Of a DNA stretch of 64,000 bases, positions 15,698-61,078 are shown one piece after another. The stretch is from Chaetoceros tenuissimus (Eukaryota > Bacillariophyta > Thalassiosirophyceae > Chaetocerotales > Chaetocerotaceae), in contig BLLK01000045.1 in NCBI GenBank assembly GCA_021927905.1, positions 1 through 64,000 of the forward strand, written 5' to 3'. The number at the start of each line of letters is the position of its first letter. Positions within the stretch are counted from its first letter, which is position 1. The translations under genes were made by a program, and so were the position numbers. The notes under the pieces are model-generated. The model saw only the letters and a list, made by a program, of their open reading frames with translations, had not been told where the DNA came from and searched no databases.

Positions 15698-17218
15698 ATG
15701 AATCAGAATTCTACAGATGGCAACAATCCCTCTGGACCACCACCGATAGGAGGCAGGACTGGAAATAGTCCCCTGGCACCGCTGGACTCAATTTTCAACG
15801 ATACCGATGCATCAAGAGAAGAGTTTACCCAGAGATACATGGATAACCCTGTTTTTGCACAAAATCAACGCCCTCCTCCTCATGACTATGGAAGATCTCC
15901 CTATGATAACAGGCCGCCTCCTAATGATCCATATCGTTATGGCTCATATCCTCCTCCACCAGGTCCTCCTGATGTGGCAGCTAGATCACCAGGGCATCAA
16001 GGAAACCAGCCAGATATGTCTGGAAGGCAGCAGCCACCGGGAGGACCAGGAGCTTGGCAGCAGCCACCAGGACCAGGTAATTATCCTCCTCCACCAGCAG
16101 CAGGAGGACAAGCACCGCAAGATCCATGGTATGGGAACAGGGATAATACAGGGGCTACAACATCTCAACACTCACCTCAGAGACAGATGATGCCTCAAGA
16201 CCAATACGACAACAGTCAATACCCTCCTCACATGAGACCGCCACATGATAATCACTATCCATATCCACCTCCATATTCTCCAAGTCATAATCATGGTTAC
16301 CCTCCTCAGTACCCTCCTTATCCTCCTAGGCCATACCCTGATCATCGTCCTCCACCTGATCCGCGCTATGGAAGCTATCCTGGAGGTTATCCTCCATACC
16401 CACCACCATATGACTATCATGGTTACTACGGACAAAGGGGGCCACCAGGAGGACCACCTCCATATGGTGGTCCACCTGGTTACAATTATCCTCCAGGACC
16501 AGGAGGTCAAATGCCTATGCCAATGTATCCTGGAATAGCTTACATTAAAGATATCAACGAAAACGATGTCCTTTGTGGAAGAGGAGGAGCAACCAACTCT
16601 CATTCAGGTAATAGATCTTATCGAAAACTAGTGAAAAAGTTCAAGGATAAATATCTCAAAGCGAAGAAGAAGCAGAAACCAGCTGTTGCAGCAGAGGTGG
16701 TTGACATTATTCGTAAGCTTGATCCACCGGGAAGATTCCTCAAGAAGGATAAGGATACTGGTTGGTACACTGATATTGGTGATGCGAGAGCGAAGGAGAA
16801 GACAAGTCAGGCTCTAAGAGAGGGAGCACCTCTTATTCGAAAACAAATGAGTGAGGGAACATATGTTGTTGAGTTTTCGAGTGATGATGACAGTGTTGTA
16901 ACTCCTCCAATTCCAGGAGAAGAAAAGGAAGAGAAAAAGGAAGAGAAAAAGGAGACGAGAAAATCACCTGGACCAAAGGCTGATAACAGTGCAAATGATG
17001 AGGCGAAGGATAAGTCCAGTGATGAAAAAGAAGGGGATGATGGTAAGAAACGGGGAGCAGAAGATGATATTACAGGAGAATCTCCTTTGAAAAAGCAAAT
17101 GACAAGTAAAGACGACGACAAGGAAGATCTCGGAGAGGATTTTGACCCTCCAAGAAACGAAGGGAGTAACAAGGAGGCCAAGGAAGAAACTGAAACTTCA
17201 AAGGAGGCTGCTCTGTAG
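15698..17218 (+). CDS. Proline-rich DUF6824-domain protein (copy 1)
   Basis: The intronless 506-residue protein has a long Pro/Gly/Tyr-rich low-complexity N-terminus (about residues 10-270, many YPPP and PPYP units), then a compact basic domain at about 278-380 beginning IKDINENDVLCGRGGATNSH and containing RSYRKLVK, DPPGRFLKK and ALREGAP. This is the DUF6824 domain, which I know mainly from diatoms and relatives. A highly charged, acidic, Lys/Glu-rich tail follows, with EESPLKKQ-like segments. No signal peptide or membrane span is seen. The basic domain beside disordered tails suggests a nuclear, perhaps DNA-linked role, but that is inference. The copy at 40275-41618 has the same architecture. 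Confidence 0.88.
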   Translation: MNQNSTDGNNPSGPPPIGGRTGNSPLAPLDSIFNDTDASREEFTQRYMDNPVFAQNQRPPPHDYGRSPYDNRPPPNDPYRYGSYPPPPGPPDVAARSPGHQGNQPDMSGRQQPPGGPGAWQQPPGPGNYPPPPAAGGQAPQDPWYGNRDNTGATTSQHSPQRQMMPQDQYDNSQYPPHMRPPHDNHYPYPPPYSPSHNHGYPPQYPPYPPRPYPDHRPPPDPRYGSYPGGYPPYPPPYDYHGYYGQRGPPGGPPPYGGPPGYNYPPGPGGQMPMPMYPGIAYIKDINENDVLCGRGGATNSHSGNRSYRKLVKKFKDKYLKAKKKQKPAVAAEVVDIIRKLDPPGRFLKKDKDTGWYTDIGDARAKEKTSQALREGAPLIRKQMSEGTYVVEFSSDDDSVVTPPIPGEEKEEKKEEKKETRKSPGPKADNSANDEAKDKSSDEKEGDDGKKRGAEDDITGESPLKKQMTSKDDDKEDLGEDFDPPRNEGSNKEAKEETETSKEAAL

Positions 17219-18654: not shown

Positions 18655-19980
18655 TTAGAGCCACACCTTCAGTCTTGACATAAAAGTAAATGCTGTCTGT
18701 TCCACAAGTTCGACTCTTTCACTTACGGTGTATCCTTCAGGAGGTTTGATTCCCCATTTTTCTTCAGCCCTTTCTAACATTTTTAAGATGTCATCGTTTA
18801 TAAGAAATGCAGTTTCAATGTCAGTCGTTTTCTTTTGTTGTTGGAGGACTGCTTCTATTTGTTTTATGCGGTCTGGATATGTTATATTTGCAGGTACGGT
18901 TATACCTAGCTTTTGTTCAAGAGCTTGTAGTTGTGAACCAAGATCTCCATGAACTTGTGATCCATTAGCTTGTGACAAACTAATCTCTTCGCCTCCGCTT
19001 TTCGGTGTCTGTAACTCATCAGTACTTTCTTCAGTACTAAACCTTTTCAACACTTCAGGTACTGGGAGTAGACCTGTTCCTAAACATTTATGACAGTACT
19101 TGCTTTCAAAAGATGACTTAGCCTCATCAGGAACTTTTTCATCCTTTGATAAATCGATTGTTGTTGTCTTTGCTTGTATGTTAGATGGAGATTTTTTATC
19201 AGACTCTCCTGAAGGTTCGACAGTAGCATCCGATATGCTTGTTTTTACATCTTCAATTTTTGAATCTCCGAGCCTTTGCCTCTTTCGCTGTTGTCTAGAA
19301 GAATCGTGTTGCTGCTTTTCAACCAATTTCTTGCGTTCCCTATTCACACAGTCAGTTAAAACACATCGGACATAATCTTTTGCCTGTTTTGAATTCATTT
19401 CAGTGTATGCATTTTGATCTGTAACATATAGCAGAAAGCGGCCTTTTGGGTTTTGACTAATTACTTCATTATATATCTTGGACGCAATCTTTTCTCGTCC
19501 GGTATCGTCGGATTGCACATATCTTTTGTAATATTTTTTGAGACAGGTCCGATAAAATTCGTTACCTTTATGGCTTCCACTTGAAGGACCTTTACCATGG
19601 GTGACGTCGTTTTCTCCTATCTTTGTAATCATTTCAAGTGCCTGTCGTGATCCATTAGTTGACGGAGTAGAATATTCATATTGGTTAGTTTGTGGAGGTA
19701 TGTTGTTATAGACAGGTGCAGGTGGATTTCTAGGATATGTAGTTGGTGCGGGAGGAGGGTAATTTTGATAAGAATCGTAGTAAGCTGGATCTTGACGTTG
19801 AGGACTTGACCTATTAGCATAGTTATAATAAGGTGCCTGTTGATCTTGCATAATGGGTTGTGGTGCTATGGGTTGTAAAAGATTATTCGTCATAGTGTCA
19901 GGTCTACCACTATTTGGAGGAAGCTCGTTCTGGTTTTGTTCTCCACCAGTGCTTGGATCAAAAAATGCCTGCGTCACCAT
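18655..19980 (-). CDS. Divergent DUF6824-domain protein (copy 2)
   Basis: The intronless 441-residue protein has a short Pro/Tyr/Gln-rich N-terminus (about 1-110), a domain at about 117-215 that starts MITKIGENDVTHGKGPSSGS and keeps the DUF6824 landmarks (NDV-x-x-G-x-G, F/Y-R-x-x-x-K-K, NPKGRFL, K-Q-A-K), and a C-terminal region with CHKCLG (a CxxC that could bind metal) and a coiled-coil stretch (about 335-420). Against copies 1 and 3, Cys in VLCGRGG is replaced and the domain is clearly diverged. It converges on the upstream membrane-protein gene, their 3' ends being about 120 bp apart. Function unknown. Confidence 0.8.
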   Translation of the reverse strand: MVTQAFFDPSTGGEQNQNELPPNSGRPDTMTNNLLQPIAPQPIMQDQQAPYYNYANRSSPQRQDPAYYDSYQNYPPPAPTTYPRNPPAPVYNNIPPQTNQYEYSTPSTNGSRQALEMITKIGENDVTHGKGPSSGSHKGNEFYRTCLKKYYKRYVQSDDTGREKIASKIYNEVISQNPKGRFLLYVTDQNAYTEMNSKQAKDYVRCVLTDCVNRERKKLVEKQQHDSSRQQRKRQRLGDSKIEDVKTSISDATVEPSGESDKKSPSNIQAKTTTIDLSKDEKVPDEAKSSFESKYCHKCLGTGLLPVPEVLKRFSTEESTDELQTPKSGGEEISLSQANGSQVHGDLGSQLQALEQKLGITVPANITYPDRIKQIEAVLQQQKKTTDIETAFLINDDILKMLERAEEKWGIKPPEGYTVSERVELVEQTAFTFMSRLKVWL

Positions 19981-20514: not shown

Positions 20515-21441
20515 CTAAGAGTCTTCCACATTAAGACGTTGGGCGTTTGCAATTGCTGTGGATGTCCTTGTAGCTCCATATTTTCGTTGCTTTCTATCAA
20601 GTGCAAATCGCCAAGAAAAATCATGACCACAAACGCAAATCATATGATCACATCCATAACCTTTCGAAATGAGAAGTTTGCATCTAGGGCACTCTGCCCA
20701 TCCATCGTTTATACCGAATTTGTCATTTTGCATTTCTTCCATAACTGCGATTGTTGATTCTGTTTGAGTTTTGTCATCATGCAAGACAATAAACATAGTC
20801 GAACAAGCTCGGCAGTGCAGTTTTTGTTGATTTCTGACCAAGTTTCCACAATCACATTTTGGACAATTTGCAAGTTTATATTTGTCTGGTTTTTGATAGG
20901 CACTAGCGATTGCTGATAGATGCTGATGTTTTCTCCTTTCTTTGTCATTTTTCACCAGACCATGTCTTTCTAGTTGCGAAAGTGCAACGTGGATGTTGCA
21001 AGATGGAAAGAAACAAGTAAGAGGATAGTTGGATACATCTTTCTGTGCCTCTGTTACATATATTTTACGATAACAGGTTTTGCACGCAGGGGAGTGATTG
21101 CAATTTCGCATGAGGTTGAAAAGAGGTTCAGAAGTAACTTCACAGCAAATTGGACAGTACTCTTCTTTTTTAGATAATTGTGTAGATGTTTCTGTTGAGT
21201 TGCTTTCATTGTCGTCTACTTGATTATATTCCTCGTCATCATAGTATTCTTCGAAGAAGGAGACGAAGTCATAGTAGTCCATGACTTCATCATCAATCTG
21301 GTAACTTGTTTTAAGTTTCCTCCCATATTCAGGGACTCTCTGTTCCGTTGAACACTTCCTATTATCATTATGACTGGATCCACCTCTTCGAATCTTGGAC
21401 CCGAAGTGTTTGGAAGCGTGTTTCTGCCATCCACGTGGCAT
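20515..21441 (-). CDS. RBR-type (RING-IBR-RING) E3 ubiquitin ligase-like protein
   Basis: The 308-residue protein has a basic N-terminus, an acidic patch (about 48-85), then three zinc-binding modules: RING1 from C96-P-I-C99 through C120/C123 to C143/C148, an IBR-like region with C193-P-K-C196 and C210/C213, and RING2 from C251-P-R-C254 to GYGC264DHMICVCGHDFSW. RBR ligases take ubiquitin from E2 onto a RING2 cysteine; C264, in the GC(N/D)HM context, is the expected catalytic residue and is present. It is compact compared with ariadne/parkin proteins and lacks an obvious regulatory domain. A single intronless exon is read from the ATG at 21441. Substrates are unknown. Confidence 0.82.
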   Translation of the reverse strand: MPRGWQKHASKHFGSKIRRGGSSHNDNRKCSTEQRVPEYGRKLKTSYQIDDEVMDYYDFVSFFEEYYDDEEYNQVDDNESNSTETSTQLSKKEEYCPICCEVTSEPLFNLMRNCNHSPACKTCYRKIYVTEAQKDVSNYPLTCFFPSCNIHVALSQLERHGLVKNDKERRKHQHLSAIASAYQKPDKYKLANCPKCDCGNLVRNQQKLHCRACSTMFIVLHDDKTQTESTIAVMEEMQNDKFGINDGWAECPRCKLLISKGYGCDHMICVCGHDFSWRFALDRKQRKYGATRTSTAIANAQRLNVEDS

Positions 21442-21787: not shown

Positions 21788-23500
21788 TCATATACATGGC
21801 TTTACAAGAGAAGGCTTGCTCTTGATTAATTCAAATATAGTAGAAAGTTCTTCTTTTCCGTCAGGGCATTTCGCAGTAGCTGCAAGGAGAAATGGAAGCA
21901 TATTATTTTCCTTGTCTGAATCATCAATTACCGCAGGGTTAATTTCCATCAAAGAAGCAATACCTGTTGACCAAGTCTTTCCAGTTTTTAGCGAAGTATG
22001 AAGTGGGTAATTTCCTCTTGCATCTTTTTCCTTTGCAGCTGATGGAGAAATATTCAATAAATCCTCCAACAATTGGGTACCATTGTATTCTACAGTACAA
22101 TACTGTGATACTTGTGGTCCGAAATATCCTATGCAGTTCTTGCAGCACTTGGTGTTATTGGGTAAGCGAAATGAAAGTCCGCCAGCTTCACAGTTACATT
22201 GAGAGCAAGTCTGATGATGTGCCTTTGCAAGGTTGCTATTCGAGATGATATGAAGAGGAAAATTACCATCACAGTCGCGGTGGGTAGCTAGCTCAGGACA
22301 CATTCGCAAAAGTAGCTTTGTGAATAACGGGAAAGCAGCCCAGAATGATGCCTCATGAGGAGTAGACTGGCTGTACTCCACACTACCATAGATTGCAACC
22401 CTTAATACATAAAATAGGGATTCAATACATTGCGTAAGCTCTTTGCTGAAAACGCTTGCAGTCCTTCCAAAGGATTCCAAGTCGCTCATAGATAAGGATC
22501 CATTCAACACTTGTTCAGTTGTAACTCTCTGGAGATCATGATAAAACTCATGCACGGAGTTCATCCCATACCCATTGCATTGGAGCAATAAGTGGCGCAT
22601 ATCTATGTAGTCAAGGCCATGACGCAAGAGTAACTTAACTCTGTTGGATGAAGCAGTGATACGTTCTGACCGCAAAGGAATGTGTCCTGAAAAATTACGG
22701 ATGTAGAGGGCCTCAGGATAAGATGCAATCAAGCATCCAATGATCTCAGAGGATTCATCCTGTGAGTTTACTAGATGCAATGGTAGGTTTCCTTGCTCGT
22801 CTTGTATTCTGCATGCTTCTGGATACATGTGGACAATGTTTTGGACAAGTGCAGCGGATGAGCCAGGATGGGAAACGATTATGTGAAGAAGAGTGTTTCC
22901 ATTAGAGCTGATTCTAGAAATCTCTGGAAATCTCTTCATAATGGCATCACATATTTCAAAAGGTGGAAGGAAATCATTCACTTGATGAAGAACAGAACAG
23001 TGTTGATTGTAAAATGCTGCTTGAGGTAATGCTTGAATTACATTCAGAGCAGCTTCCAGTCCGTTGCTTCCAATCAGATTCTTTAACAGAACATGGAAAG
23101 GCAACTCATAATTTTCTTCCATCGGTCTAAGGGATGTTTCCGGGGCCACTGCAATTAAATGTTGCATAAGATCTGGGCGTGAAAGACTAGGATATGTAGC
23201 ACTGCCGTTGTTTGTATCACACAACAAATGCAATGGAAGATTGCCATCTTCATCTTCGACACAACATAGTTCTGGAAAATATTTAGTTATGATAGCAATC
23301 ACTGATTGAGGGATTGTATTCATATAACATGCATCATGGAGAATGGTACATGGTTCGCTTCTTAGATTTTGTTTGACCTCTTCCTGAAATTTTGGCGATT
23401 CCAGCATGGAGATAGCTTCACTCCAACATTGCTTCCTCAAAGACTCCGAAAAGTGCTCTTGATAAAGGTAGCATTGACTGGATTCATTATTCATACTCAT
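21788..23500 (-). CDS. Ankyrin-repeat protein with Cys-rich insert
   Basis: The 570-residue intronless protein carries at least seven ankyrin-like units recognised by TILHDAC, GNLPLHLLCD, YELPFHVLLK, GNTLLHIIVS, GNLPLHLVNS, GNFPLHIISN and GNYPLHTSLK. Between the last two is a Cys/His cluster, HHQTCSQCNC followed by CCKNC, about 15 residues later, that could bind zinc. The terminal block MLPFLLAAT matches MLPFMIAAG in the ankyrin protein at 3938-5038, so they are family members. No signal peptide, membrane span or catalytic domain is seen. The role is presumably as a protein-binding scaffold; partner unknown. Confidence 0.87.
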   Translation of the reverse strand: MSMNNESSQCYLYQEHFSESLRKQCWSEAISMLESPKFQEEVKQNLRSEPCTILHDACYMNTIPQSVIAIITKYFPELCCVEDEDGNLPLHLLCDTNNGSATYPSLSRPDLMQHLIAVAPETSLRPMEENYELPFHVLLKNLIGSNGLEAALNVIQALPQAAFYNQHCSVLHQVNDFLPPFEICDAIMKRFPEISRISSNGNTLLHIIVSHPGSSAALVQNIVHMYPEACRIQDEQGNLPLHLVNSQDESSEIIGCLIASYPEALYIRNFSGHIPLRSERITASSNRVKLLLRHGLDYIDMRHLLLQCNGYGMNSVHEFYHDLQRVTTEQVLNGSLSMSDLESFGRTASVFSKELTQCIESLFYVLRVAIYGSVEYSQSTPHEASFWAAFPLFTKLLLRMCPELATHRDCDGNFPLHIISNSNLAKAHHQTCSQCNCEAGGLSFRLPNNTKCCKNCIGYFGPQVSQYCTVEYNGTQLLEDLLNISPSAAKEKDARGNYPLHTSLKTGKTWSTGIASLMEINPAVIDDSDKENNMLPFLLAATAKCPDGKEELSTIFELIKSKPSLVKPCI

Positions 23501-24209: not shown

Positions 24210-27200
24210 CTACCATTGTGATTGAGCAATTGCCAGATTACTAACTTTCTTCCTGGCTTTTTTCAGCAAACTGTACAGCAACTTGGATGGTGCCAAATAA
24301 CATAACTCTTCCTCTTCGTGATCAGCACTACTGACAATACCTATGACAAGACCTGCATCATTCACTACTGGCCCTCCTGAATGTCCATGCCTTGTGCGTA
24401 GATGAGCTTTTATCCATAATGAGGGACAATGATATCGAATATTAGCATTGGTAGAATTGGATTGAGTTGAGTGTCTATCTACTCTTGATTTCGTAATAAC
24501 TCTACCTGCTTTGTAACAAGCATTGCCGTTGTAATTGTTCTCGAATTCCTGATCATATCCAATCATCCTCACTGACGACTCCAGCTCGACCTTATCTGTC
24601 ATACCAAGCCTACGTAGACCATCTGCTTTCGGATTGAATATACCTACCTCAGCCTGAGGATACGAGATTCTATTACCATCTGCTTTCAGCGGACTCTCAA
24701 ACTTAGACTTCAATCGAAGCACACACGCATCGACATTCTCCAAGTCTTCAGTCACTATGTCTGCGGTATATTGAAAGAGTGCAGATTCTGTTGATGAATC
24801 ATAAACTCCAATGATAGCACGAGCGCCATCGATACCGTGATACTTAGGACCGATGCTTTTATCAGCTTCAAAATGGAAGAAAGTATGGCCAGCTGTGATG
24901 ATGAGTCCACGTTGTGTATCAGCAATGAATCCGGATCCGAGGGATGTGATGAGGCCTTGTTTGGTATCCCAAATGCCGACAAGTACAACCGAAGGATGAA
25001 TATCAACAATATCTTTCAACTTTTTCGAACTCCTTTTGCTTTTTGCGTGCCTAGATTTGATTGGAGTTTTATTATCAATATCGACAACACAATGAACTTT
25101 TCTAGACCAACAAGAAGGTGATAATTGGATTTCGTGTTTTGACGGTTTTGACTTTTCAAAGTACTCATATACATTCGGCATGATTTTGAAATCAGGACAG
25201 GCTTCTTCAAGATTATGCCATGATGTGAACGTGTCTCCTCTCAATATCCTTGGATCGACACGATGCACTTGAGCCTGATTTGAGCACAATATACACTCAT
25301 TCCCAGCGATCAACACTGATGCCTCCTTCCACATCGCAGCATCTCTCGGATCTTTCGTCAACAAACACTCCGGACAGCCTACCTCACGAGTAAACACATC
25401 ATTCAGCTTACCCTTCACTGCCCAGTCCACCGCTTTCCGTATTGCTTCATATCCCAATGTCCAGATCTTCGCACCATTATTACCTGCGAAGCCCTTCCCA
25501 CATAGTATAAGTTTACGGTCAGAGCTCCGCATAGTCTTCGCACCAACACAGTTGGGCGAGTCTACATTTGCAAGATGTACATAGATCTCAGCGATGCTCG
25601 ATACCATTTCCTTTGTCTTGTATGAGAATGATATCTCTACGATCTTCATGTAGATTGCCGTCTTGTAGCATAGCACCTGCTCGACATAGATACCTTGGGC
25701 TCGACCATGACGTGAGTCGGTATTGTCAGTCTTGCTGTCCTTGTACATATCATTGAGTACTGTCAGCACTCCTTGTGTGATCTCGTCCATGAAGCTTGGA
25801 GGCAAGTTACCTCCCATTACCCATGAGTGGCATATGACTGTTTTGTGGTTCTCTCTAGTCTTGAAGGTCCATGGCGAGCCACTGTCCAAAGGCTCTGCTA
25901 CTACTCGAGGTAGTACATAGAAGTCCCGATTGCTCACATCGTCACCAATAGGCATGAAGATCCCGTTATGTTCACATAACTGCTGAAGGAACATGTAGAG
26001 TTGGCCAGCTTGTGAGTCGGAGTCGTCTGTCAGAGCGCATTGTGAGCTGATTTGTGGTTTGGACTCCCATATTTCTACAGCTTCAAATGGTCGTATACTC
26101 AGACTCTCAAAGGGATCGTCATCGTGGTTGGAGTATATACTACCAAAGCCACTGACAGCATCTTTATCTCGGATGTCCTTGATCTCATCAGGCTCCAAGA
26201 CACATCCTATCGCAAACGACAGCCATCGAGGATCAAGCACTACATACTGCTTCAGCAACACAGGATCAGCACATAGCGGTGCTTGATCGCCAAAGTACAC
26301 TACCTCTCCAATAGTCGATAGGAACGCAAGAGCTTCTTGTACGACATCCTTGGAGAAGTGATCACCAACAGGTGGGTTCCTTGATAGTGCGACATAGATG
26401 TCATCAAAGCGTACTACCTTTTGCTTCATCTCACGGAAGGTGGCCAAGATGTCTTTGACAGCAAGCTGGAGAGGTGTCATTGGTGCATATAAATGTTTGA
26501 ATATGCCTGTTTTGTTGGAATGCTCAATGGATGTGGTATTGAGTATAGCACGTCGTAGCTCATCGACACTATGATGGTTGATAGTGGTGGTGATGTTGTC
26601 TCTGGATGTGCTACTACTGCTATCATCGTCGGCAGACAGCAATGATACGACAGGTATCTTGTCATTCTCACCTAGAGCGAGTATAGGTAGTGATTGTCTT
26701 CGTGCTTGTGCTCTATTGCGATGATCTTGGAGACATTTGTATAGTAGGTTGACTCTGTATGAGGTTTCTTGCTTGTCAATAGATGCGGAGTGTAGGATGA
26801 TGGGCATGATAGCACATCCGGAGAAGTTAGGCTCGGATATGACGTCTACCCAGTATAGAACGTTATCTTCGATGTCGCGAATGATGGTATTTTCTTTGTT
26901 TTTGAGTAGTGTAATATGTTCAGGGTTGTATTCATCGTATGAATCGTCGTCATCGTATGAGTCGTCATCATGGAGTCCGGTGCCACTACTGCTGCTTTTA
27001 GCTTCGTTGATTATACGATTGAGCTTATGGTTATGAATAGCAAGGTCCCATACAATAATGTATAAAGAATCTGGAGAGAAATGCTCTCGTTGCTTTGATC
27101 AATTCATTGCGCATTATTAGTCAACATATTTCCAATTTTTACTTGAACAAGCATTTCCTTGACTTACCTTCATTCCTTTCATTTCATTACTCCCTTCTAC

Positions 27201-27494
27201 ATGGTTATATAATATAAACTCTGAACAATTGATTCTTCCACATGAACTCACAGTTTGAAAGGATTCTTTCCATCGGCATATTTCAACATCCATCCTATTC
27301 TTGCTTGACCTTGATTTTACTGTTTTCATAGCTAAGCTTTTCGCTATGAAGGATCTTGATTGATCCAAATCTTGGCAACTGCATAGAAATATCTTTAGAG
27401 GCAACGGTCTCAAGTCATGTTCATAGCTCAAGTCGTTCTCAATCACTACAAAGTCATCATCTTCCATTAGTTTATCCTTGGTCCCTTTCCACAT
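24210..27494 (-). CDS. ROCO-protease copy A: degenerate Roc, COR, trypsin-like domain
   Basis: Two exons, 27494-27191 and 27070-24210, give about 1054 residues. The join (A|AT, GTAATG donor, TCTCTCCAG acceptor) keeps the intron where copy B has it; a stronger GTAAGT donor at 27167 with an acceptor at 27093 is an alternative (1069 residues). Order: short N-terminus, Roc-like domain whose P-loop is lost (LCSCQDLDQS) and whose DxxG is HVEG, NSLYIIVWDL, acidic insert, VLYWVDVI, a COR-like region with YVVLDPRWLS and FYVLPRVVAEP, a CPEC motif, a variable linker, then a trypsin-like domain with H830 (ITAGH), D882 (NVDAC) and S999 (GHSGGP). Roc-COR proteins are signalling scaffolds; a chymotrypsin-fold protease as the output is unusual. 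It is near-identical to copy B in the core. Confidence 0.78.
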
Positions 27495-30400
27495 TTAGAT
27501 TATGTTGTTATATTATAGCAGATCAAAAGTATTGACTCAACTATTTATTGACAACCTTCAATGAAGTACTGGTCTCCATGATCAAAAGGAAGGGCTCCTC
27601 ACTAAGGTACTCACTAGTTGTGATGTTTTAAAAAATGAATTCCAGATTGTTCTTCAGATAATGAGAGAGACAGTCTTTTCATCGTGTCATCATACCAAAA
27701 TAGTATTTTTAAATTAGAAACATCGTCATTGTACTGTTTGTGGTTCGTGGTACGGAGACAACAACACACAGCACACAGCTCACCAAAAAAAATAGAACAA
27801 CTTTTTGTTCCATTCAATTTTTCATCAACCTATGATACAAAGTTAATGGAAAAGATACTGTAATGGACAGTTTCAACAAACGCACTTTACAACAACATCT
27901 AACTATATTTTGAGCTACTAGACTGGAAGCTAGGCTATCCAAGACTATAACTGCTACCATAGGAGAACTTCAGTAGCTATTATTTTGACTTGCAAAACAT
28001 ACATTTATTTAAAAGCACGACCAAGCATACAAAATGGAAGGTACACCAGTTGCAACTCTCAATGCACCATCTTCTGAGTCTCAGAAATTTAGTCCAGACT
28101 CTCAACACCATGAAAGTTCCGGTCAAAATAATTTGACTGCATCTACTATTCCAGTTAGTAACAATCGTCCAATGTCGCCTAGAGATAGTGATGTTGCAAG
28201 TTCTTTTACACAAGGAAGTAATGCTTCTTCTGTCATCTCAGCTTTAAAGAGAATGATGCAAAATCCAAGGACACCTATGAGGGTTGAGTCGAGGATATCT
28301 TCCATCACAACAACTGCACAGCAGTATGGTAGTGATGAACAGGATGAACCGTTGACAGACGTTGACGTAGACGTAGACAACGTTGATGAAACTTTTCCAA
28401 GTGATGTACCAAATGATCATCAAAGCCTTAATCTTGATGATCAAAGTGCAACTAGTCACCATAGATATGACGGAAGGGAATTAGCAGTAGTTGATTCTAG
28501 ACTTATCGAAGTTAGAAAAGAGAAGGATACATCTTACGATGACGATTCTGTAGAAATGCCACAAAAGAAAGGTATCCAACGAGCCTTATGCCTTGACGAA
28601 GATAGCTTACATAATATCAAACATAGAGCCAAAGTTGTATTTAAGAAGCGGACACAGAAACAAAAATCACAAGTGAATCTCAAGTCAAAAAACAAAGGGA
28701 AAAAGAAAACAAAAGGAGGAAAAGCTGGAAAATTCTACAATGACATCACTCCTAGCACGAGGAATACTGACGATTTTCAATTGCGGGCTCTTTCAACGAA
28801 GAAAAGGGTGCCATCCCATCAAATGCTTCATGATATGTTGGATGTTGAAATGTCTGATGTTAGTGACATTGATCAGCAAGATGCACAGTTTTTAGCAGAA
28901 AGTCCAAATTACACAAGAGGTCTTCGACAATCACTGAGTGCTCATATGTCTCATATTCCACAAGTTGTCCAATGTGTGAAAAGAGGAGTATCCAATATGT
29001 ATTCTGAAGTGAACCACATTATGGAGGAGAACTCGAGATCCCGAGAAAGTTTTATTGAGAGTATAAAAAGCATCTCCAGTCATGAACATGATTTTTTGCA
29101 TGAGAATGACGATAGGAATTCAATATCTCCACCACCACCCCTAAATGAAAGGAATGTCTCTCTTGAAAGACACACTTCCGATTTAGGTAGAGAGGGAGTC
29201 AAAGATAGAACTTTCTCTGATTTTCAGAAAGCTGCCAATATGATTTTGCGTGAAAGTGCCAATTCAAGTGATTTTGAATCACATGATATAGAAGCAAGTT
29301 TACACCAATCAAGATCTGCAATTGGCATCGATGAATCTCCGAGGCCTAATAAAGTAAGAGAGATGGTGAAGGCAATTGATGCCAGACATGCTATACAAAC
29401 AGGCATAGCTGCTGGCACTCATGGTCCTTCGACTCCCCGAACAAAGATAGCTAAGGGGACTATTACGTCTTTGAGAAAAGCCCCCCCTGCAAGTGTATTT
29501 AAACAGCAAGAAATAAAAACACCGAACGATATAATGAAGATAATCTTTCTTGGAGGGATTCATAATAATGATGAAAAGTCAAGAATTATTCATACCATGC
29601 TGTCTCAAAAAGGAAAATACAAAAAGCTATGGAGCGGGGACAAGATTGATGTACGAAGGTATTGTTGGGAACCTGAGCAAACTGGTTCACAAGGCGATAT
29701 GTACCGACTAGGATTTGGACAAAGAACTCCAAAGTACAATTTATTTGATCTTAAAGGCGGTACAGTAAGCTCTAGCCTTCACCATGTAAGTCCAATCAAT
29801 ATATATGCATATGTCAAATATCTCATTTTCCAAAAAAGACCTTCTAATGCAGAGAGACTTTCCAGTCCATGCAATCATTATTTTTCTCTCCAGATTCTTT
29901 AAACATCATTGTATGGGACCTTGCCATTCATAACCATAAGCTCAATCGTATAATCAACGAAGCTAAAAGCAGCAACAGCACCGGACTCCATGATGATGAC
30001 TCATACGATGACGACGATTCATACGATGAATACAACCCTGAACATCTCACACTACTCAAAAACAAAGAAAATACCATCATTCGCGACATCGAAGATAATG
30101 TTCTATACTGGATCGACGTCATATCCGAGCCTAACTTCTCCGGATGTGCTATCATGCCCATCATCCTACACTCCGCATCTATTGACAAGCAAGAAACCTC
30201 ATACAGAGTCAACCTACTATACAAATGTCTCCAAGATCATCGCAATAGAGCACAAGCTCGAAGACAATCACTACCTATGCTCGCTCTAGGTGAGAATGAC
30301 AAGATACCTGTCGTATCATTGCTATCTGCCGACGATGACAGCAGTGGTAGCATATCCAGAGACAACATCACCACCACTATCAATCATCATAGTGTCGATG

Positions 30401-32690
30401 AGCTACGACGTGCTATACTCAATGTCACATCCATTGAGCATTCCAACAAAACAGGCATATTCAAGCATCTATATGCACCAATGACACCTCTCAAGCTTGC
30501 TGTCAAAGATATCTTGGCCACCTTCCGTGAGATGAAGCAAAAGGTAGTACACTTTGATGACATCTATGTCGCACTATCAAGGAATCCACCTGTTGGTGAT
30601 CACTTCTCCAAGGATGTCGTACAAGAAGCTCTTGCGTTCCTATCGACGATTGGAGAGGTAGTATACTTTGGCGATCAAGCACCGCTATGTGCTGATCCTG
30701 TGTTGTTGAAGCAGTATGTAGTGCTTGATCCTCGATGGCTGTCGTTTGCGATAGGATGTGTCTTGGAGCCTGATGAGATCAAGGACATCCGAGATAAGGA
30801 TGCTGTCAGTGGCTTTGGTAGTATATACTCCAATCACGATGACGATCCCTTCGAGAGTCTGAGTATACGACCATTTGAAGCTGTAGAAATATGGGAGTCC
30901 AAACCACAAATCAGCTCACAATGCGCTCTGACAGACGACTCCGACTCACAAGCTGGCCAACTCTACATGTTCCTTCAGCAGGTATGTGAACATAACGGGA
31001 TCTTCATGCCTATTGGTGACGATGTGAGCAATCGGGACTTCTATGTACTACCTCGAGTAGTAGCAGAGCCTTTGGACAGTGGCTCGCCATGGACCTTCAA
31101 GACTAGAGAGAACCACAAAACAGTCATATGTCACTCATGGGTAATGGGAGGTAACTTGCCTCCAAGCTTCATGGACGAGATCACACAAGGAGTCCTGATA
31201 GTACTCAATGATATGTACAAGGACAGCATGACAGACAATACTGACTCGCGTCATGGTCGTGCCCAAGGTATCTATGTCGAGCAGGTGCTATGCTACAAGA
31301 CGGCAATCTATATGAAGATCGTAGAGATATCATTCTCAAACAAGACAAAGGAAATGGTATCGAGTATCGCTGAGATCTATGTACATCTTGCAAATGTAGA
31401 CTCGCCCAACTGTGTTGGTGCGAAGACTATGCGAAGTTCTGACCGTAAGCTGATATTATGTGGTAAGGGCTTCGCAGGTAACAATGGTGCGAAGATCTGG
31501 ACATTGGGATATGAGGCAATACGGAAAGCGGTGGACTGGGCAGTGAAGGGTAAGCTGAATGATGTGTTTACTCGTGAGGTAGGGTGTCCGGAGTGTTTGT
31601 TGACGAAGGATCCGAGAGATGCTGCGATGTGGAAGGAGGCATCAGTGTTGATCGCTGGTAATGAGTGTATATTGTGTTCAAATCAGGCTCAAGTGCATCG
31701 TGTCGATCCAAGGATACTGAGAGGAGAGTATATCCAGAACCATCACGATGATGAAAGTTGTTCCATCAAATCTGGGTTTTCACAGTTCAGTTTGATCAGT
31801 CACTACTCTGCAGTATCCCAAAGCATCTATGATGGTTCTGAAGTCAAACCCACTAGAGATATTAGAGATATTCGTCCTTCAGTTGTACTTGTCGGCATTT
31901 GGGATACCAAACAAGGCCTCATCACATCCCTCGGATCCGGATTCATTGCTGATACACAACGTGGGCTAATCATCACAGCTGGCCATACTTTCTACCATTT
32001 TGAAGCTGATAAAAGCATCGGTCCTAAATATCACGGAATAGATGGTGCTCGTGCTATCATTGGAGTCTATGATTCATCGACAGATTCTGCCCTCTTTCAA
32101 TATACCGCAGACATAGTGACTGAAGACTTGGAGAATGTCGATGCGTGTGTGCTTCGATTGAAGTCTAAGTTTGAGATTCCACTGAAAGCAGATGGGAATA
32201 GAATCTCGTATCCTCAGGCTGAGGTAGGTATATTCAATCCGAAAGCAGATGGTCTACGTAGGCTTGGTATGACAGATAAGGTCGAGTTGGAGTCGTCGGT
32301 CAGGATGATTGGATATGATCAGGAAGGGGATGAGATTTATCTCGTTGAGGGAGTGGATTATAGTCCTTGCTACCGTGCAGGGAGAGTGATCAAGAAATCC
32401 GATCGACGCTCCACGTCAAGTCAATCATCTCATTCTAGTGCTTTTATCTCAAACAACAACATGGCAGATAATTTCCAGAGCATTCGATATCATTGTCCCT
32501 CGTTATGGATAAAAGCTCATCTACGAACAAGGCATGGACACTCAGGAGGACCAGTAGTGAATGATGCAGGTCTTGTCATAGGTATTGTCAGTAGTGCTGA
32601 TCATGAGGAAGGAGAGTTATGTTATTTGGCACCATCCAAGTTGTTGTACAGTTTGCTGAAAAAGGCTCGAAAAGAAGTTAATTCCCAGAC
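24240..32690. repeat. Inverted duplication carrying the ROCO-protease pair
   Basis: The arms are 24240-27080 (minus) and 29884-32690 (plus), about 2.8 kb each, with a 2.8-kb non-identical centre. Identity is very high from the intron acceptor (TTTCTCTCCAG) through the COR region, drops in the linker (about 25000-25235 and 31725-31870), returns for most of the protease, drops again for about 35 codons before the active serine, and is high to near the stop codons. Confidence 0.85.
27495..28033. promoter_or_regulatory. Shared divergent promoter region of the ROCO-protease pair
   Basis: The two paralogues diverge from this 539-bp interval, so both promoters lie here. No inverted symmetry was noticed, meaning the duplication does not extend into it and the two genes may be regulated differently. 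No separate gene is supported. Confidence 0.5.
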
Positions 32691-32730
32691 TGGCACTGTA
32701 CAAAGGGTTCGGTTTTCATCCCGGGACTAG
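28034..32730 (+). CDS. ROCO-protease copy B: disordered N-terminus, degenerate Roc, COR, trypsin-like
   Basis: Two exons, 28034-29759 and 29894-32730, joined G|AT (donor GTACAG, acceptor CTCTCCAG), give 1520 residues. Residues 1 to about 500 are disordered, Ser/Asp-rich, with a Lys-rich patch near 205-235. The Roc-like domain follows: MKIIFLGGIHNNDEKSR replaces a canonical GxxxxGK(S/T) loop, FDLKG keeps DxxG, then DSLNIIVWDL, an acidic insert, and VLYWIDVI with IILHSASID in place of the G4 motif. The COR-like region carries YVVLDPRWLS and FYVLPRVVAEP, then CPEC. The protease domain has H1273 (ITAGH), D1325 (NVDAC) and S1459 (GHSGGP), so catalysis is plausible. No signal peptide: probably intracellular. 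Function is inferred to be signal- or damage-triggered proteolysis, by architecture alone. Confidence 0.82.
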
Positions 32731-40274: not shown

Positions 40275-41618
40275 TTAGATTTCGAAAGTTGGAGCTTCGT
40301 CATCTTTGAGAGCATCTTCTTCCCCCCCTACAACTTGGCGCTTAGTTGGGCTCTCATCTTCCTCACCTGTTTCAGAGGTCTTGCGCTTCTTTGGAGACTC
40401 TTTATCCTCATCAGAAATTGCCGGAGTGCTTATGGATGAAGGCACAGCTGGTTTAGCCGGTCCCTTCTTCTCCTTCTCTTCCTTCTCTCCTTCTTCTGCT
40501 TTCTCCACCTTTTCTCCTGGAATAGGAGGAGTCATGACACTATCGTCGTCACTTGTGTGTTCAACCTCGTATGTCCCATCTTCCATTTGCTTTCGCATCA
40601 GTGGTGCACCTTCCCTAAGTGCCTGGCTGGTCTTTTCCTTAGCCTTTGCATCACCAATGTCAACGTACCAACCGGTATCCTTGGACTTTTTGAGAAATCT
40701 TCCAGGTGGATCAAGTTGACGAATAATATCTACAACTTCTCCAGCTACGTGTGGCTTATCCTTCTTTTTTGCGCTGAGATATTTCTGCTTCATTTTTTTC
40801 ACAAGCTTTCGGTAAGATCTATTACCGGAATGAGAGTTGGTAGCACCTCCTCTTCCGCAAAGAACATCATTTTCATTGATGTCTTTGATCCAAGCGATTC
40901 CAGGATACATTGGCATAGGCATATGACCTGGACTTCCTTGTCCAGGAGGCATCATGTGATTGTAACCAGGTCCTGGAGGTGGCGGGTATGGATTCCGATT
41001 CCAGTATGAATATCCATCGAGATGCTGAGGAGGAGGAGGGCCATTTCTTCCAGGACTTCCACCATAATATGGATTTGCTTCTGGATGCTGGGGAGGAGGG
41101 GGTCCATTCCTTGAAGGGCTTCCGTAAGAAGGACTAGATGGGTCCGAGCTACCGTAGTTATTACTTGGAGGTGGAGGCGGATAATATCCTTGTGGTGGAT
41201 AGTATCCAGACTGTTGTGGCGGTGGTGGGTAATACCCTTGCTGTCTATCATAGTAGGAATGATATGGATCAGGATGTCTACTAGATGGATGAGGCGGATA
41301 ATAGCCTCCTCTAGGTTCACTATCTTTACGGTCCTCAGGGTAAGGGGCATATCCTGTTGGCGGAGCAGGCCAAGAATGCTGATCATAGCCATATGGTGCT
41401 GGGGGAGGAGGATATTGCTGATGATGGTTCAAAAGTGGAGGCAAGTTACGAGGTGGAGTTGCCTCATTCTTCATAGCGTTCCCAGATGCGTTGAAATGAA
41501 AAGGAGGTGCACCATAGTTCTGGTCACCCTGAGCCTCTGCACTTCCTTCTACTTTCCCAGTTCCTCCTTCAGGTCTAGGCTTGATCTCCGCTGTTTCTGT
41601 TTCTACTTTTTCTGTCAT
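40275..41618 (-). CDS. Proline-rich DUF6824-domain protein (copy 3)
   Basis: The intronless 447-residue protein starts at the ATG at 41618 (MTEKVETET); an in-frame upstream extension to 41819 would add a hydrophobic segment that does not suit the family. A Pro/Tyr/Gly/His-rich N-terminus is followed by the DUF6824 domain at about 240-345 (IKDINENDVLCGRGGATNSH, RSYRKLVKK, DPPGRFLKK, ALREGAP) and an acidic Lys/Glu/Pro-rich tail with SDDDSVMTPPIPGE. Domain and flanks are very close to copy 1 (15698-17218), which shares SDDDSVVTPPIPGE, so these two are recent paralogues. Function unknown; nuclear location is inferred from composition. Confidence 0.87.
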   Translation of the reverse strand: MTEKVETETAEIKPRPEGGTGKVEGSAEAQGDQNYGAPPFHFNASGNAMKNEATPPRNLPPLLNHHQQYPPPPAPYGYDQHSWPAPPTGYAPYPEDRKDSEPRGGYYPPHPSSRHPDPYHSYYDRQQGYYPPPPQQSGYYPPQGYYPPPPPSNNYGSSDPSSPSYGSPSRNGPPPPQHPEANPYYGGSPGRNGPPPPQHLDGYSYWNRNPYPPPPGPGYNHMMPPGQGSPGHMPMPMYPGIAWIKDINENDVLCGRGGATNSHSGNRSYRKLVKKMKQKYLSAKKKDKPHVAGEVVDIIRQLDPPGRFLKKSKDTGWYVDIGDAKAKEKTSQALREGAPLMRKQMEDGTYEVEHTSDDDSVMTPPIPGEKVEKAEEGEKEEKEKKGPAKPAVPSSISTPAISDEDKESPKKRKTSETGEEDESPTKRQVVGGEEDALKDDEAPTFEI

Positions 41619-41872
41619 ATTGCAATCAAGTTTGAATTCTTCAATTTTGTGATCTAGTTCCAAGTTGACACAATTCTTATTGGGATTGATGGAGTAATGA
41701 AGAACATTACTGGTGCATAATGAAGGGATGGCTGCCACGACACAAGATACAACCACGAAACGGAAACGATTTTTAAAGTACCTAAATTTAGCTGAAATCT
41801 CGAACAATTTAGATGTCAATATTTATAAATTTTTGTTTTGATTTTTTTGGAAAAGTTGACTGTAGTAATTCT

Positions 41873-50986: not shown

Positions 50987-53900
50987 ATGGGTATTTCAGA
51001 TGAGTATATAGATTATAGTTGCTCTACACCACTCGAGCGGCTATCGAGAGATGTAGAGACTATGCTTAGGTCTTGGTATATAATTGAAGGATCAGATAGA
51101 CATGTGAGCTTTCATGATAGTGATCGCAAACCAAATGTTCAAATGTCTAATCCCTCAGCTACAAAAAAGTTTGCCCCTCCATCAGTATCAAAGAATGGTC
51201 ATTCATATGCAACTCCAGTAAAGGAATACAATAGAGAGAGGCTACTCACTCCTTCTAGGTCTTCCAATAATAAAAGACGTACTGATAATGACGAGACATT
51301 TATGGGAGCAACGGCAGAAGCAAATGTAGCTAGTAGCAGTGATAAGAATACTTCTCCATCTTTATTCTCGCCATCATCACCCATGAGAAAAATGGTTTTG
51401 ACTGGGAATTCAAATGATGATAAAAAATACAATTCACCAGACAGACTCAATACTAGCCTGGATACAAGTATAGATGATTTGGTTGATTCAACTGCATCGG
51501 CGGCACTGAAAGCATTCCATACGCCACCAAGAACTAGAAAAGACTTGTATATTCTTGAAGAGGAAACCAAAAGATCAGATATTCAACTCATCCGTTCAGG
51601 AAAAATTACCTTTGCAACTTTGACTCATGATTATGAAAGAATGGAAATAGAATTAGACTTGTGTCTTTGGGACGGGCCACCAGCACCAGAATTCTATGCA
51701 ATGGATGCAACCAGTAATACTCCATCTGACGGTCCAAGCAAAACGAATTCACAGCGATTGCCATTATCATTGATTGCGAATGCAAATGATCCCTTTCCAT
51801 CCATTAACATATTGAATAATCTTTCATCACTTTTTGGAATCGGGCAGCATCTGACGCTTTCACCGTCCGATCCTAGCGCAGTAGAATCTTTATTGCATTC
51901 AACTATGCAAGCTCTGAGTGATGCAAATCATCCATCTCGCAAAGAAACTGGATTGGGATTCATTAGTACAATTGCAGCTTCAAGACGAACAGCTATGGAT
52001 CAAGTAGCATTACAATCAGCAGCATTGAAATCTTTAAGCCATCAATTACAAATGGCTCTCAATACTGCCATCACAAATTGTGATTCTCGAATACCTTCGT
52101 TCGGGATATGGGGAGTGTATAAACCACACGTAAGACTTAATAAAGTGGAAGGGCAGAATGATACTCTCACTCAAAGCGTAATGGAAGTACCAGCATGGAT
52201 GAATAGTGGCAATTTGTTTGACTTAGCCGCAGATGAAAGCATTTGTTGTTCGTTTCGAAAGCATATTGAAGAAATGATGGATGAAAGTGAAAGCGAAGAT
52301 GACGATGATGTTTCAATTGGCGGTCAAAGCTATCGGTCTAATCCTCGATCCCCTTCTCGTCATCGAGAGCGTAGGACTCCTTCTCGTCTTACATCAAATT
52401 TGTCGCTAATGCAAAGGAGAAGAGCGAACAATGACACTTCATCTACGAAGAAAAGACTTCTTCTTCCTGCGTTTATAACTGGAAAGTGTCATGCTGGATC
52501 TTCTTGTTTTGCAACAGGAGCTGAATTTGCTATTCATGTTGTTCCTCCTGGTGTTGAATATCCAATTCACTGCACAACACTAAATACACTAGGCAACCTT
52601 TTATCGCAGCAAAGTAAAGAAGGAACCAGGAAAAGAGCGAAGCGAGGTAGGAGGCAGAAAACAAATAGGATACAGCAAATCAATCCCAATGACTTGGATG
52701 GTGATGAAGGAAAGGTATTTGTGTCTGGTGCAAGACACAAATATACTTGGAGTAAAATATTTCAATACAACCAAAATTTCATTCCAAGACAGGAAGAACT
52801 GCTACTTGCATCCCCCTCTTCACCACGTAGTAAACTTCGTTGGGATGACTTGAATATTATGACTTACGACTTAAATTGGCGGCGATCTGCAAACTCTATC
52901 CTTGAGAACGGTGATGGGAGTTTGACACTGAAGCAATATCAAGATGCATGCAAGGCACGAGCACTATTATTGTTATACCGGGCTTCTCTCACAGCAAAAA
53001 CAAATAAAGCAAAGAGAACGATGGCGGAAAACAGAAGTTTGGAATGTCTTTTTGGACCGACGACTGACCCTTTGTTATTATTGAATATAACATGCAGTTG
53101 GACTAGCAAAGAGAAACCTTCATCTCCGAAAAGGACCCCAGGACTTACGAAAGAAGTGATACCGCTTCTTGCTCTACCCTTGAGGATACGATCAAATAAT
53201 ACCATGACATCACAGGATATATTAGAAATGGAGAACTCTTTACTCTCATCTATATTCAATCCTCTGACAGCCCCAGATTTCAAAGTCAGCGTAATGTTTG
53301 ATCCAGACGTGGCTTGTACAACACTTAGTGCTTCGAATAGATGTCTTTTGGCTTCGCTCATCCGCACATGTACTCTAGACCAATCTTATTTGCTAGGTCA
53401 TATGACAAAGCCAAACATTTTGGACGAGCTTCATCATCGGGAAGAGCTAAATGAAATTGCAGAAGAGATCATGAATGAATCTCACATATCCACTCTCACA
53501 AGGAACCTTGTTCATGCCGTTGATTGGAATGGAATGGCGACACTACTCGAAATGGATGAAAGTGTCAACAGGAACAGGATGCGTGACATTGTTGAAAACG
53601 TTTTTACAATTTGTTCAAACAATGATAACTTCCCTAGCCCGCCGGTCGAAATGTTCACATCTATGTCTAGTGACAACAATGAAATCGACTGTCCATTTAG
53701 ATCACATTTAAATAAGGCTAGCAAACCGGGTAGACTTTTGTCCGTTCTATTTACAAGTATGAGTTCCTTGCAAACTCCATCCGCAATGGCTTCTTTGTGG
53801 CTTGACTTTATCTCAGAACTCCGGTTGAAATGGGAAAAAAGGGAGAGCATTCCAAATACTGGATTAATACCAGGTCTTGACAAAGCGAAGAAACAGGAAA

Positions 53901-60005: not shown

Positions 60006-60667
60006 GTTGGTCAATGGTTATGTTTTGCTGTTCTTATTTTCATTTATGTTTCATGTATGAATATCATCAATAATGAAGATTGCTGTTTGACAGAGACACA
60101 AACGTAGCGACGAACAAAAGTTGGAATTCATGGAAACAAGACTCAACAGGCAGCTAAATTAGCCAAGCTAAATTTCCGGGGGCAAACACGAATGAAATAA
60201 AGCTAAAAAGCTCGAACTAAATTTATCTAATACTCCGAAAAAATGAACAGCGAAATCGGTGATGTCCTGTGATGAGCGGTGATGTCCTGTGATGAGCAAT
60301 TATGTCTTTAATAGGACGTTTGTTACTAAGAATTAATACATACGTAGTTATAATTACTCCGAAAATTCTCTTTTGCTGACTGTTGAGGCAACATCTGGTT
60401 TAGCATCTGTCTAACAATGAAGAATACAACAACGTCTACGTACGTACATACGAACAATATGCGATGGCACATCGAAGAGAAAAGAAGAATCCATTTTCAC
60501 TGGGAGAGCTCAATGGCTCTTCTATTTGTGAAGATAGCAACATGTTCATAATATTCATATGTAATCATTGCATTGCACTGTATAAAATATCTCAAACTCA
60601 AAGAATATTTCGTGCTCGGTGAGAGAATGAGTGCCGCACAGAAGAGAAAATAATGCAACGACAACAA
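60006..60667. other. intergenic region with 20-bp tandem duplicate
   Basis: It lies upstream of the coiled-coil gene. A perfect 20-bp tandem duplication occurs at 60257-60296, and TACGTACGTACATACG-type GTAC repeats near 60438-60450. No gene is supported. Confidence 0.55.
60257..60296. repeat. 20-bp perfect tandem duplication
   Basis: Two adjacent identical 20-bp units (60257-60276, 60277-60296) lie about 250 bp upstream of the coiled-coil gene start. Confidence 0.9.
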
Positions 60668-61078
60668 AGAAGCATCTGTACCTTAGAGGCCTTCCATGTT
60701 TTGAACTCGACTAGGACCTTCTGGAATGACTGCTGAGAAGAAGCTTCACCCACCCCAGCTGAAGATTAGTTGCCTTTGTTCGATCCTTATAGCAGCGTTG
60801 AAATGTTATTGCTATGGTTCGAGTCTTTACACCCAGCAGTACTGTTGAACCAAATTCTAGCTGTCAATATTTCAATTAGAGCTGTCAATATTTCAATGGC
60901 TAATTCTTTTATTCTCCAGACGTCGTCCTGTCCATGTGTAAGTTTAAGATCAGTCCGAGAATCACTACTTCGACTTGAAGGAAAGAGCAGTATTGCACTC
61001 CGCCTACTCAATAATGACATGATCAAAAGCATTTCGAATCCCATTGAAAAGGCAGATGAAATGATGGACCCCTTCACC
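60668..61078 (+). pseudogene. Broken duplicate of a RAB3GAP1 internal segment
   Basis: This 411-bp stretch is a close copy of 54630-55009 in the RAB3GAP1 gene, in the same orientation. It has a 5-bp insertion near 60681, in-frame stops TGA at 60734 and TAG at 60767 where the source has TGG and CAA, and a 21-bp tandem duplication at 60859-60900 plus smaller indels. Similarity stops abruptly at both ends and no start codon or promoter context is evident, so it is a dead segmental duplicate. A 123-codon frame through it (60770-61141) is a by-product of the source reading frame. Confidence 0.9.

Follow-up and report, generated by a model that had tools for sequence, protein, structure and literature searches.

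Can a diatom protein join a protease to the Roc-COR switch that forms the core of LRRK2, the Parkinson's protein, and does such a protein work as a sensor coupled to an effector? The question is raised by two genes, here called A and B, that lie head-to-head in a 64-kb window (the whole stretch of DNA analysed, positions 1 to 64,000 of Chaetoceros tenuissimus contig BLLK01000045.1). The initial annotation described them as Roc-COR proteins ending in a chymotrypsin-fold protease. Our analysis supports, for both predicted proteins, an architecture composed of a degenerate Roc-like region, COR and a protease, and we refrain from classing A and B as ROCO GTPases. We put at about one half the probability that A and B are ROCO-derived, cytosolic, multi-domain proteases, most likely acting as signalling or death effectors resembling nucleotide-binding leucine-rich-repeat receptors (NLR).

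A COR-like module and a trypsin-like protease share one reading frame

Open reading frames in the window place gene A on the reverse strand and gene B on the forward strand, with starts at 27494 and 28034, and the 539-bp interval from which the two large genes had been said to diverge was found again between the predicted start codons (27495..28033); it may contain a shared divergent promoter region. Splice sites were picked by eye and by reading frame and are predicted. Gene B consists of exon 1 (28034..29764, + strand; an open frame of 577 amino acids), a 101-nt intron (29765..29865, + strand; GTAAGC...TTTCCAG) with a phase-0 GT-AG join, and exon 2 (29866..32730, + strand), and gene A of exon 1 (27168..27494, - strand; 109 amino acids), an 84-nt intron (27084..27167, - strand; GTAAGT...AG) and exon 2 (24210..27083, - strand), giving predicted proteins of 1531 (B) and 1066 (A) amino acids. 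Exon 1 of B encodes ~495 low-complexity polar residues (residues 1-495 are 71% polar, Gly or Pro) followed by a degenerate Roc-like N-terminal half (KIIFLGGIHNNDEKSR ... FDLKGGT), and exon 1 of A encodes a diverged, degenerate Roc-like N-terminal half. Exon 2 of each copy is a single open frame that runs from the second half of the Roc-like region through COR, a cysteine motif and a linker to the trypsin-like domain. Because COR and protease share one uninterrupted frame in both copies (953 codons in B and 957 in A, with no stop and no intron required), a separate gene for the protease half is unlikely. A hydrophobic leader is missing from both proteins (peak 19-residue hydropathy in the first 60 residues, 0.42 for A and -0.47 for B), which makes a cytosolic location likely for both.

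Both proteins match Trypsin_2 (PF13365) above the curated cut-off of 27.6 bits, A with 40.3 bits (24336..24938, - strand; E = 6.6e-10) and B with 37.2 bits (31933..32586, + strand; E = 6.1e-9, or 4.3e-10 on the cut segment), in agreement with the C-terminal domain claimed for each. The His/Asp/Ser triad is intact in both (H842, D894 and S1011 in A; H1284, D1336 and S1470 in B); the residue numbers first quoted for it are 11-12 too low for the present gene models, and other splice junctions must therefore have been used there. The triad and a GHSGGP motif are shared with Trypsin_2 and HtrA-type proteases, from which A and B differ in the lack of a leader, in the large COR-bearing N-terminal half and in that no PDZ was found, either in the scan of the pair at E up to 1 or in the protease segment with a limit of E = 10. 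We interpret the domain as a trypsin/HtrA-type protease without PDZ that is predicted to be active. The best matches of the protease outside Pfam are Deg/HtrA/MarP serine regions, and they are weak (MarP and DegP among them; E = 0.4-1 against Deg/HtrA structures); in PADLOC, the protease part matches RT-Protease models, again only weakly. These Deg/HtrA resemblances are what one would expect if A and B were general stress or protein-quality proteases of the HtrA/Deg kind, with COR as an oligomerisation scaffold only and no role in defence. We regard that explanation as possible if doubtful; the missing PDZ speaks against it, and further evidence on both sides is given below.

Matches to COR-A (PF16095) lie at 30508..30780 (+ strand) in B and 26181..26354 (- strand) in A, with E = 2.8e-5 and 3.9e-5 in the genome search, both below the cut-off; in the proteins, E is 1.1e-5 for B and 1.5e-5 for A, and the cut segment of B gives 1.4e-6 at 28.7 bits. 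Because the copies are near-identical there, the two matches count as one observation rather than two. When the COR part was aligned by hhalign with the ten other ROCO loci that we found in the same genome (the sister loci, described below), it scored 35.3, and 100 column shuffles reached at most 30.3. The landmarks on which the initial annotation had relied (YVVLDPRWLS, FYVLPRVVAEP and CPEC) are present in both copies, and CPEC forms part of a CPEC...CILC cysteine motif after COR (31585..31677 in B, + strand) that could be a metal site. The label "COR-like" is retained for both copies at E = 1e-5 to 1e-6, although the family's own threshold is not reached.

The GTP-binding motifs are degenerate

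In the region that had been called a Roc-like GTPase, a recognisable Roc could not be confirmed. With the limit set at E = 10, neither spliced Roc segment returned a Pfam Roc match (hits above about 0.1 are mostly discarded by the program's filters). The motifs for GTP are degenerate as well. At G1, B has GGIHNNDEKS where GxxxxGK(S/T) is expected, with both the spacing and the Gly before Lys wrong, and A has no P-loop; DxxG is present only in B (DLKG) and (N/T)KxD in neither, so that both copies have a degenerate G1 and G4 and A, in addition, a degenerate G3. Among the sister ROCOs, GxxxxGKT was found in nine of ten (none was found in the 9.5-kb locus of L051) and GTH(Y/F)D in all ten. With no Roc match and with degenerate GTP motifs in A and B alike, a working GTPase switch is not supported. 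Four reading frames of the pair were scanned for leucine-rich repeat (LRR) families at E up to 1 without a match, and the spliced Roc segments likewise gave none.

Profile-profile alignment of the pair with the ten same-genome ROCOs gives weak support to a Roc ancestry (E = 0.0028, probability 10.8%). The landmarks align in order (pair/sister ROCOs: FDLKGG/FDNGGQ, FFSPDSLNIIVWDL/LFFSREGIFIVVFDMM, NVLYW/LQYW, PIILHSASID/PVILVGTHYD and YVVLDPRWL/YCILDPQWL); the best-aligned Roc stretch is the switch-II region, and the Roc landmarks precede COR in the spliced protein. One could therefore suppose that A and B are working Roc-COR proteases regulated by a GTPase whose Roc is very diverged and still binds nucleotide, given that the order of the landmarks matches that of intact ROCOs and that B keeps a KS pair and DLKG at roughly the correct places, but the faulty G1 in B, its absence from A, the absence of (N/T)KxD from both and the missing Pfam Roc match render this unlikely. 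A COR-protease with a degenerate GTPase would offer a natural test of the role of COR without nucleotide.

Ten sister loci carry other C-terminal domains

A search of the genome for relatives (41,027,912 bases in 68 contigs) placed COR-A at at least 12 places, the pair and ten others, and Trypsin_2 at at least 20, both counts being lower bounds; among the Trypsin_2 places, only the pair coincides with COR-A. The ten sister loci (L042-L051) lie on contigs C27 (1.898-1.906 Mb), C59 (464-541 kb), C58 (822 kb), C17 (368 kb) and C32 (3.54 and 3.65 Mb); a stretch of 80 kb on C59 contains four of the ten, and one of 7 kb on C27 another two. In a domain scan that left out the upstream frame of L050, Roc was above cut-off in eight of the ten and LRR_5 (BspA type) in seven; ankyrin families matched seven at E up to 0.1, above cut-off only in L045. 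L050 contains two in-frame stops before its end.

After COR, all ten sister loci have a caspase-like Cys of the CHAT type, nine identified by pattern and L045 by eye. The matching His was recovered by pattern (full His-to-Cys) in three of the ten and, for the other seven, by eye or from an alignment; the His/Cys pattern initially used for CHAT had matched none of the ten. An alignment of eight sister loci contains two invariant His and the invariant Cys, Pfam CHAT matches six of these eight at E up to 1 (best 5.1e-6, above cut-off), and the CHAT-like profile of the sister loci matches a solved CHAT protein with E = 0.0033. We consider the CHAT assignment good but not strong, and hold it with moderate confidence, because the direct search of the genome with Pfam CHAT found no match. 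Two of the ten loci end in TIR_2 (L048, E = 3.4e-8, above cut-off; L051, E = 6e-5, below), and both are above cut-off in the genome search. By C-terminal type, then, the COR-A loci comprise two that are trypsin-like (the pair) and ten that are CHAT-like by the His/Cys pattern, two of these with an added TIR. As in bacterial-type Roc-COR systems, several paralogues with differing C-terminal effector-type domains are found in one genome. The ten sister loci are arguably more striking than the A/B pair itself. Across the genome, TIR_2 occurs at 16 places in all (L057, L059 and L061, for example), 13 of them above the curated cut-off, and ankyrin repeats were also present in one (L059) of three TIR_2 loci scanned further.

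Searching with gene B recovered the pair itself and, twice on contig C33 (L052 and L053; 963-982 kb), a third form that has decayed. The two occurrences lie in tandem units of 6478 bp that are 99.9% identical. The unit compared in detail contains stops and frameshifts, retains the order COR then protease, and matches B residues 896-1171 and 1306-1414, so that the catalytic His (1284) and Ser (1470) are both unmatched. Four pattern matches on viral contigs included no relative, and 96 pattern matches to the sister ROCO profile in bacterial and archaeal genomes included none that was confirmed.

Near-identical blocks alternate with diverged islands

The two copies are nearly identical in three blocks, whereas exon 1, the linker between COR and protease, a loop of the protease and the tail differ strongly. 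In B (+ strand), with the partner in A (- strand) in brackets, block 1 spans 29883..31727 (25234-27081; 96.8% DNA identity), the linker 31728..31856 (25015-25233), block 2, with the His/Asp half of the protease, 31857..32325 (24546-25014; 95.3%), the loop region 32326..32481 (24441-24545) and block 3, with the Ser half, 32482..32663 (24259-24440; 95.1%). A simple pairwise count of nonsynonymous (dN) and synonymous (dS) change between A and B gave dS of 0.115 for the Roc half and COR, 0.156 for the protease core and 0.37 for the Ser half, with dN of 0.012, 0.012 and 0.007, corresponding to dN/dS of ~0.10, 0.08 and 0.02. In the loop island dN is 0.45 and dS is saturated. The exon 1 sequences of A and B are alike at scattered positions only, and each matches itself alone in the genome.

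Constraint alone cannot produce like synonymous sites within the blocks and saturated ones between them. The likeliest history is therefore that the pair is old and that gene conversion has made its blocks alike, giving a mosaic; the inverted layout of A and B favours such conversion. A CYxAGRVIxKS stretch is preserved in the loop island despite the saturation of synonymous sites there, which points to long-standing maintenance of both proteases. The islands may be kept apart by selection or may simply have escaped conversion.

Two other origins for the pattern were rejected. The diverged linker and loop are not introns, as judged by eye, since the boundaries in the two copies have no common GT/AG and both regions are in frame. 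A duplication of haplotypes is at odds with the location of both copies, inverted, on one contig and with a regional dS of at least 0.115, compared with a heterozygosity of 1.56% published for C. tenuissimus NIES-3715 (PMC8613185).

The low dN/dS of the conserved blocks would suit a housekeeping enzyme as well, and a stress or quality-control protease of the HtrA/Deg kind would also be in keeping with the loss of the motifs required for a GTP switch and with how common Trypsin_2 is in this genome. Diverged exon 1, linker and loop sequences in an otherwise converted pair would be unusual for such an enzyme, however, and at the position of the protease the ten sister loci have another effector-type domain.

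A model for the pair

We return to the reading of A and B as ROCO-derived proteases with an NLR-like signalling or death function. In this model, the diverged N-terminal part would sense a partner or be held by one, and COR, a main dimer contact in the Rocos studied so far (PMC6337361), would hold or drive dimerisation; a change at the N-terminal part or COR would then free the protease to cut cellular proteins or itself. In the simplest version, COR would hold a dimer together and the N-terminal part would restrain the protease until a partner binds, molecules come into proximity or the linker is cleaved. One of these events, rather than a GTP cycle, probably exerts control, given the degenerate GTP-binding motifs. 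Defence or cell death is a likely setting, an analogy supported by the variable effector slot and the ten sister loci. Of the "sensor-to-effector design" that had been proposed for the pair, the joining of a COR-like module to an intact-looking protease in one frame is confirmed, the overall logic gains weight from the CHAT-like (in two cases also TIR) ends of the sister loci, and the Roc switch is weakened.

Several observations weigh against this reading. COR-A scores only 25-29 bits in both copies, under the curated cut-off of 35.3; hhalign assigns low probabilities (whole, 10.8%; Roc alone, 4.3%; COR alone, 22.0%), and the Roc part scores 27.5, which was equalled by 9 of 1000 column shuffles (~1% level), in addition to the failure to find Roc in Pfam. 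A plain hidden Markov model (HMM) of the ten ROCOs cannot separate A and B from shuffled sequences: in a set of 1083 that included 1000 shuffles of the two proteins, A ranked second and B near the bottom of the 30 listed. The pair is without the LRR/ankyrin part that most sister loci have, the genome-wide search did not return CHAT, and the only further form found with gene B is decayed. Outside the blocks, the islands are unconstrained (dN 1.2 and dS 1.8 in the linker), and dN/dS across the whole exon is 0.31. AlphaFold gave no confident three-dimensional model, with a predicted local distance difference test (pLDDT) score of 27.7 from a two-row alignment and 31.1 for the protease alone.

The COR-A scores, the plain HMM and the low-confidence structure predictions could mean that there is no ROCO kinship at all, and that a lineage-specific protease, whose long N-terminal half is unrelated, happens to match COR-A by chance. 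We judge this very unlikely, given that COR-A is matched over the same stretch in A and B (a single observation, as noted), that the COR alignment outscored every one of its 100 shuffles, that Roc-type landmarks stand before COR in the right order, and that ROCOs with a C-terminal peptidase have been published for brown algae and other SAR (stramenopile, alveolate and rhizarian) species (PMC11378527).

Comparison with known systems

The initial annotation knew of no described diatom system of this form. Fusion of Roc-COR with a protease is known in kind, since peptidase-ROCOs have been published for brown algae and SAR (PMC11378527) and trypsin effectors for bacteria (PMC8195603). Brown algal ROCO group 3, with three members, carries a C-terminal peptidase (IPR009003) and nests among SAR ROCOs, some others of which also have a C-terminal peptidase, and brown algal ROCOs have been interpreted as candidate immune receptors (PMC11378527). 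A and B resemble these proteins in having a trypsin-like peptidase after COR (COR-A being below cut-off in A and B) and in the stramenopile host. The brown algal ROCOs all have N-terminal LRRs, a Roc domain and 7-55 exons (PMC11378527), whereas A and B, compared by description, have no LRR that we could find, a degenerate Roc-like part and two exons, and form a head-to-head converted pair.

At the C-terminus of bacterial AP-GTPase(Roc)-COR proteins, at least 24 different domains occur, TIR, caspase and trypsin among them, and one bacterium can carry many such paralogues with different effectors, which have been read as conflict systems (PMC8195603). The ten diatom sister loci resemble this pattern of a variable C-terminal effector slot; the A/B pair differs in having neither the GTPase nor the rapidly evolving N-terminal LRRs. 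LRRK2, DAPK1 and the Chlorobium and Dictyostelium Rocos likewise place a COR module beside further functional domains, but have a nucleotide-binding Roc and kinase, death or other domains (PMC6337361); the word "protease" occurs nowhere in the text of that review.

Within the open-licence PMC literature, searched in part, two features seem to be new: the presence in one diatom of twelve COR-A loci whose C-terminal domains are of CHAT-like, TIR and trypsin type, and a pair in which a degenerate GTPase is combined with conversion interrupted by islands. Twelve COR-A loci (ten without the degenerate pair) compare with at most four ROCO copies in each of the diatoms, oomycetes and another SAR species surveyed (PMC11378527). 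The set hints at a little-explored, immune-like group of proteins in an alga.

We know of no diatom counterpart of NLR immune receptors. Viruses kill diatom cultures within days (PMC8613185). Coexistence of C. tenuissimus NIES-3715 with infectious viruses has been published. If the host here is NIES-3715, a set of ROCOs ending in protease, CHAT-like and TIR domains would make the hypothesis of algal immunity directly testable. A bolder picture, which we offer tentatively, is that this unicellular diatom possesses a set of immune ROCOs with swapped effectors (CHAT, CHAT-TIR and trypsin) in the manner of bacteria, that the pair is a pseudo-Roc/COR protease branch of it that abandoned GTP switching, with exon 1, linker and loop held apart for partner or target specificity, and that the outcome would be cell death on viral infection.

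Neighbouring genes and repeats

Gene A is adjoined by an ankyrin-repeat gene (21788-23500), and a gene nearby (20515-21441) has a weak IBR match (E = 7e-4, below cut-off). DUF6824 is present in three genes of the window (15698-17218, 18655-19980 and 40275-41819), two of which share an inverted 418-bp stretch that is 79% identical (16504-16921 and 40512-40929). A direct repeat of ~400 bp, 88% identical, occupies 54623-55009 and 60661-61078, and one copy sits inside a Rab3GAP-like gene (50987-55423).

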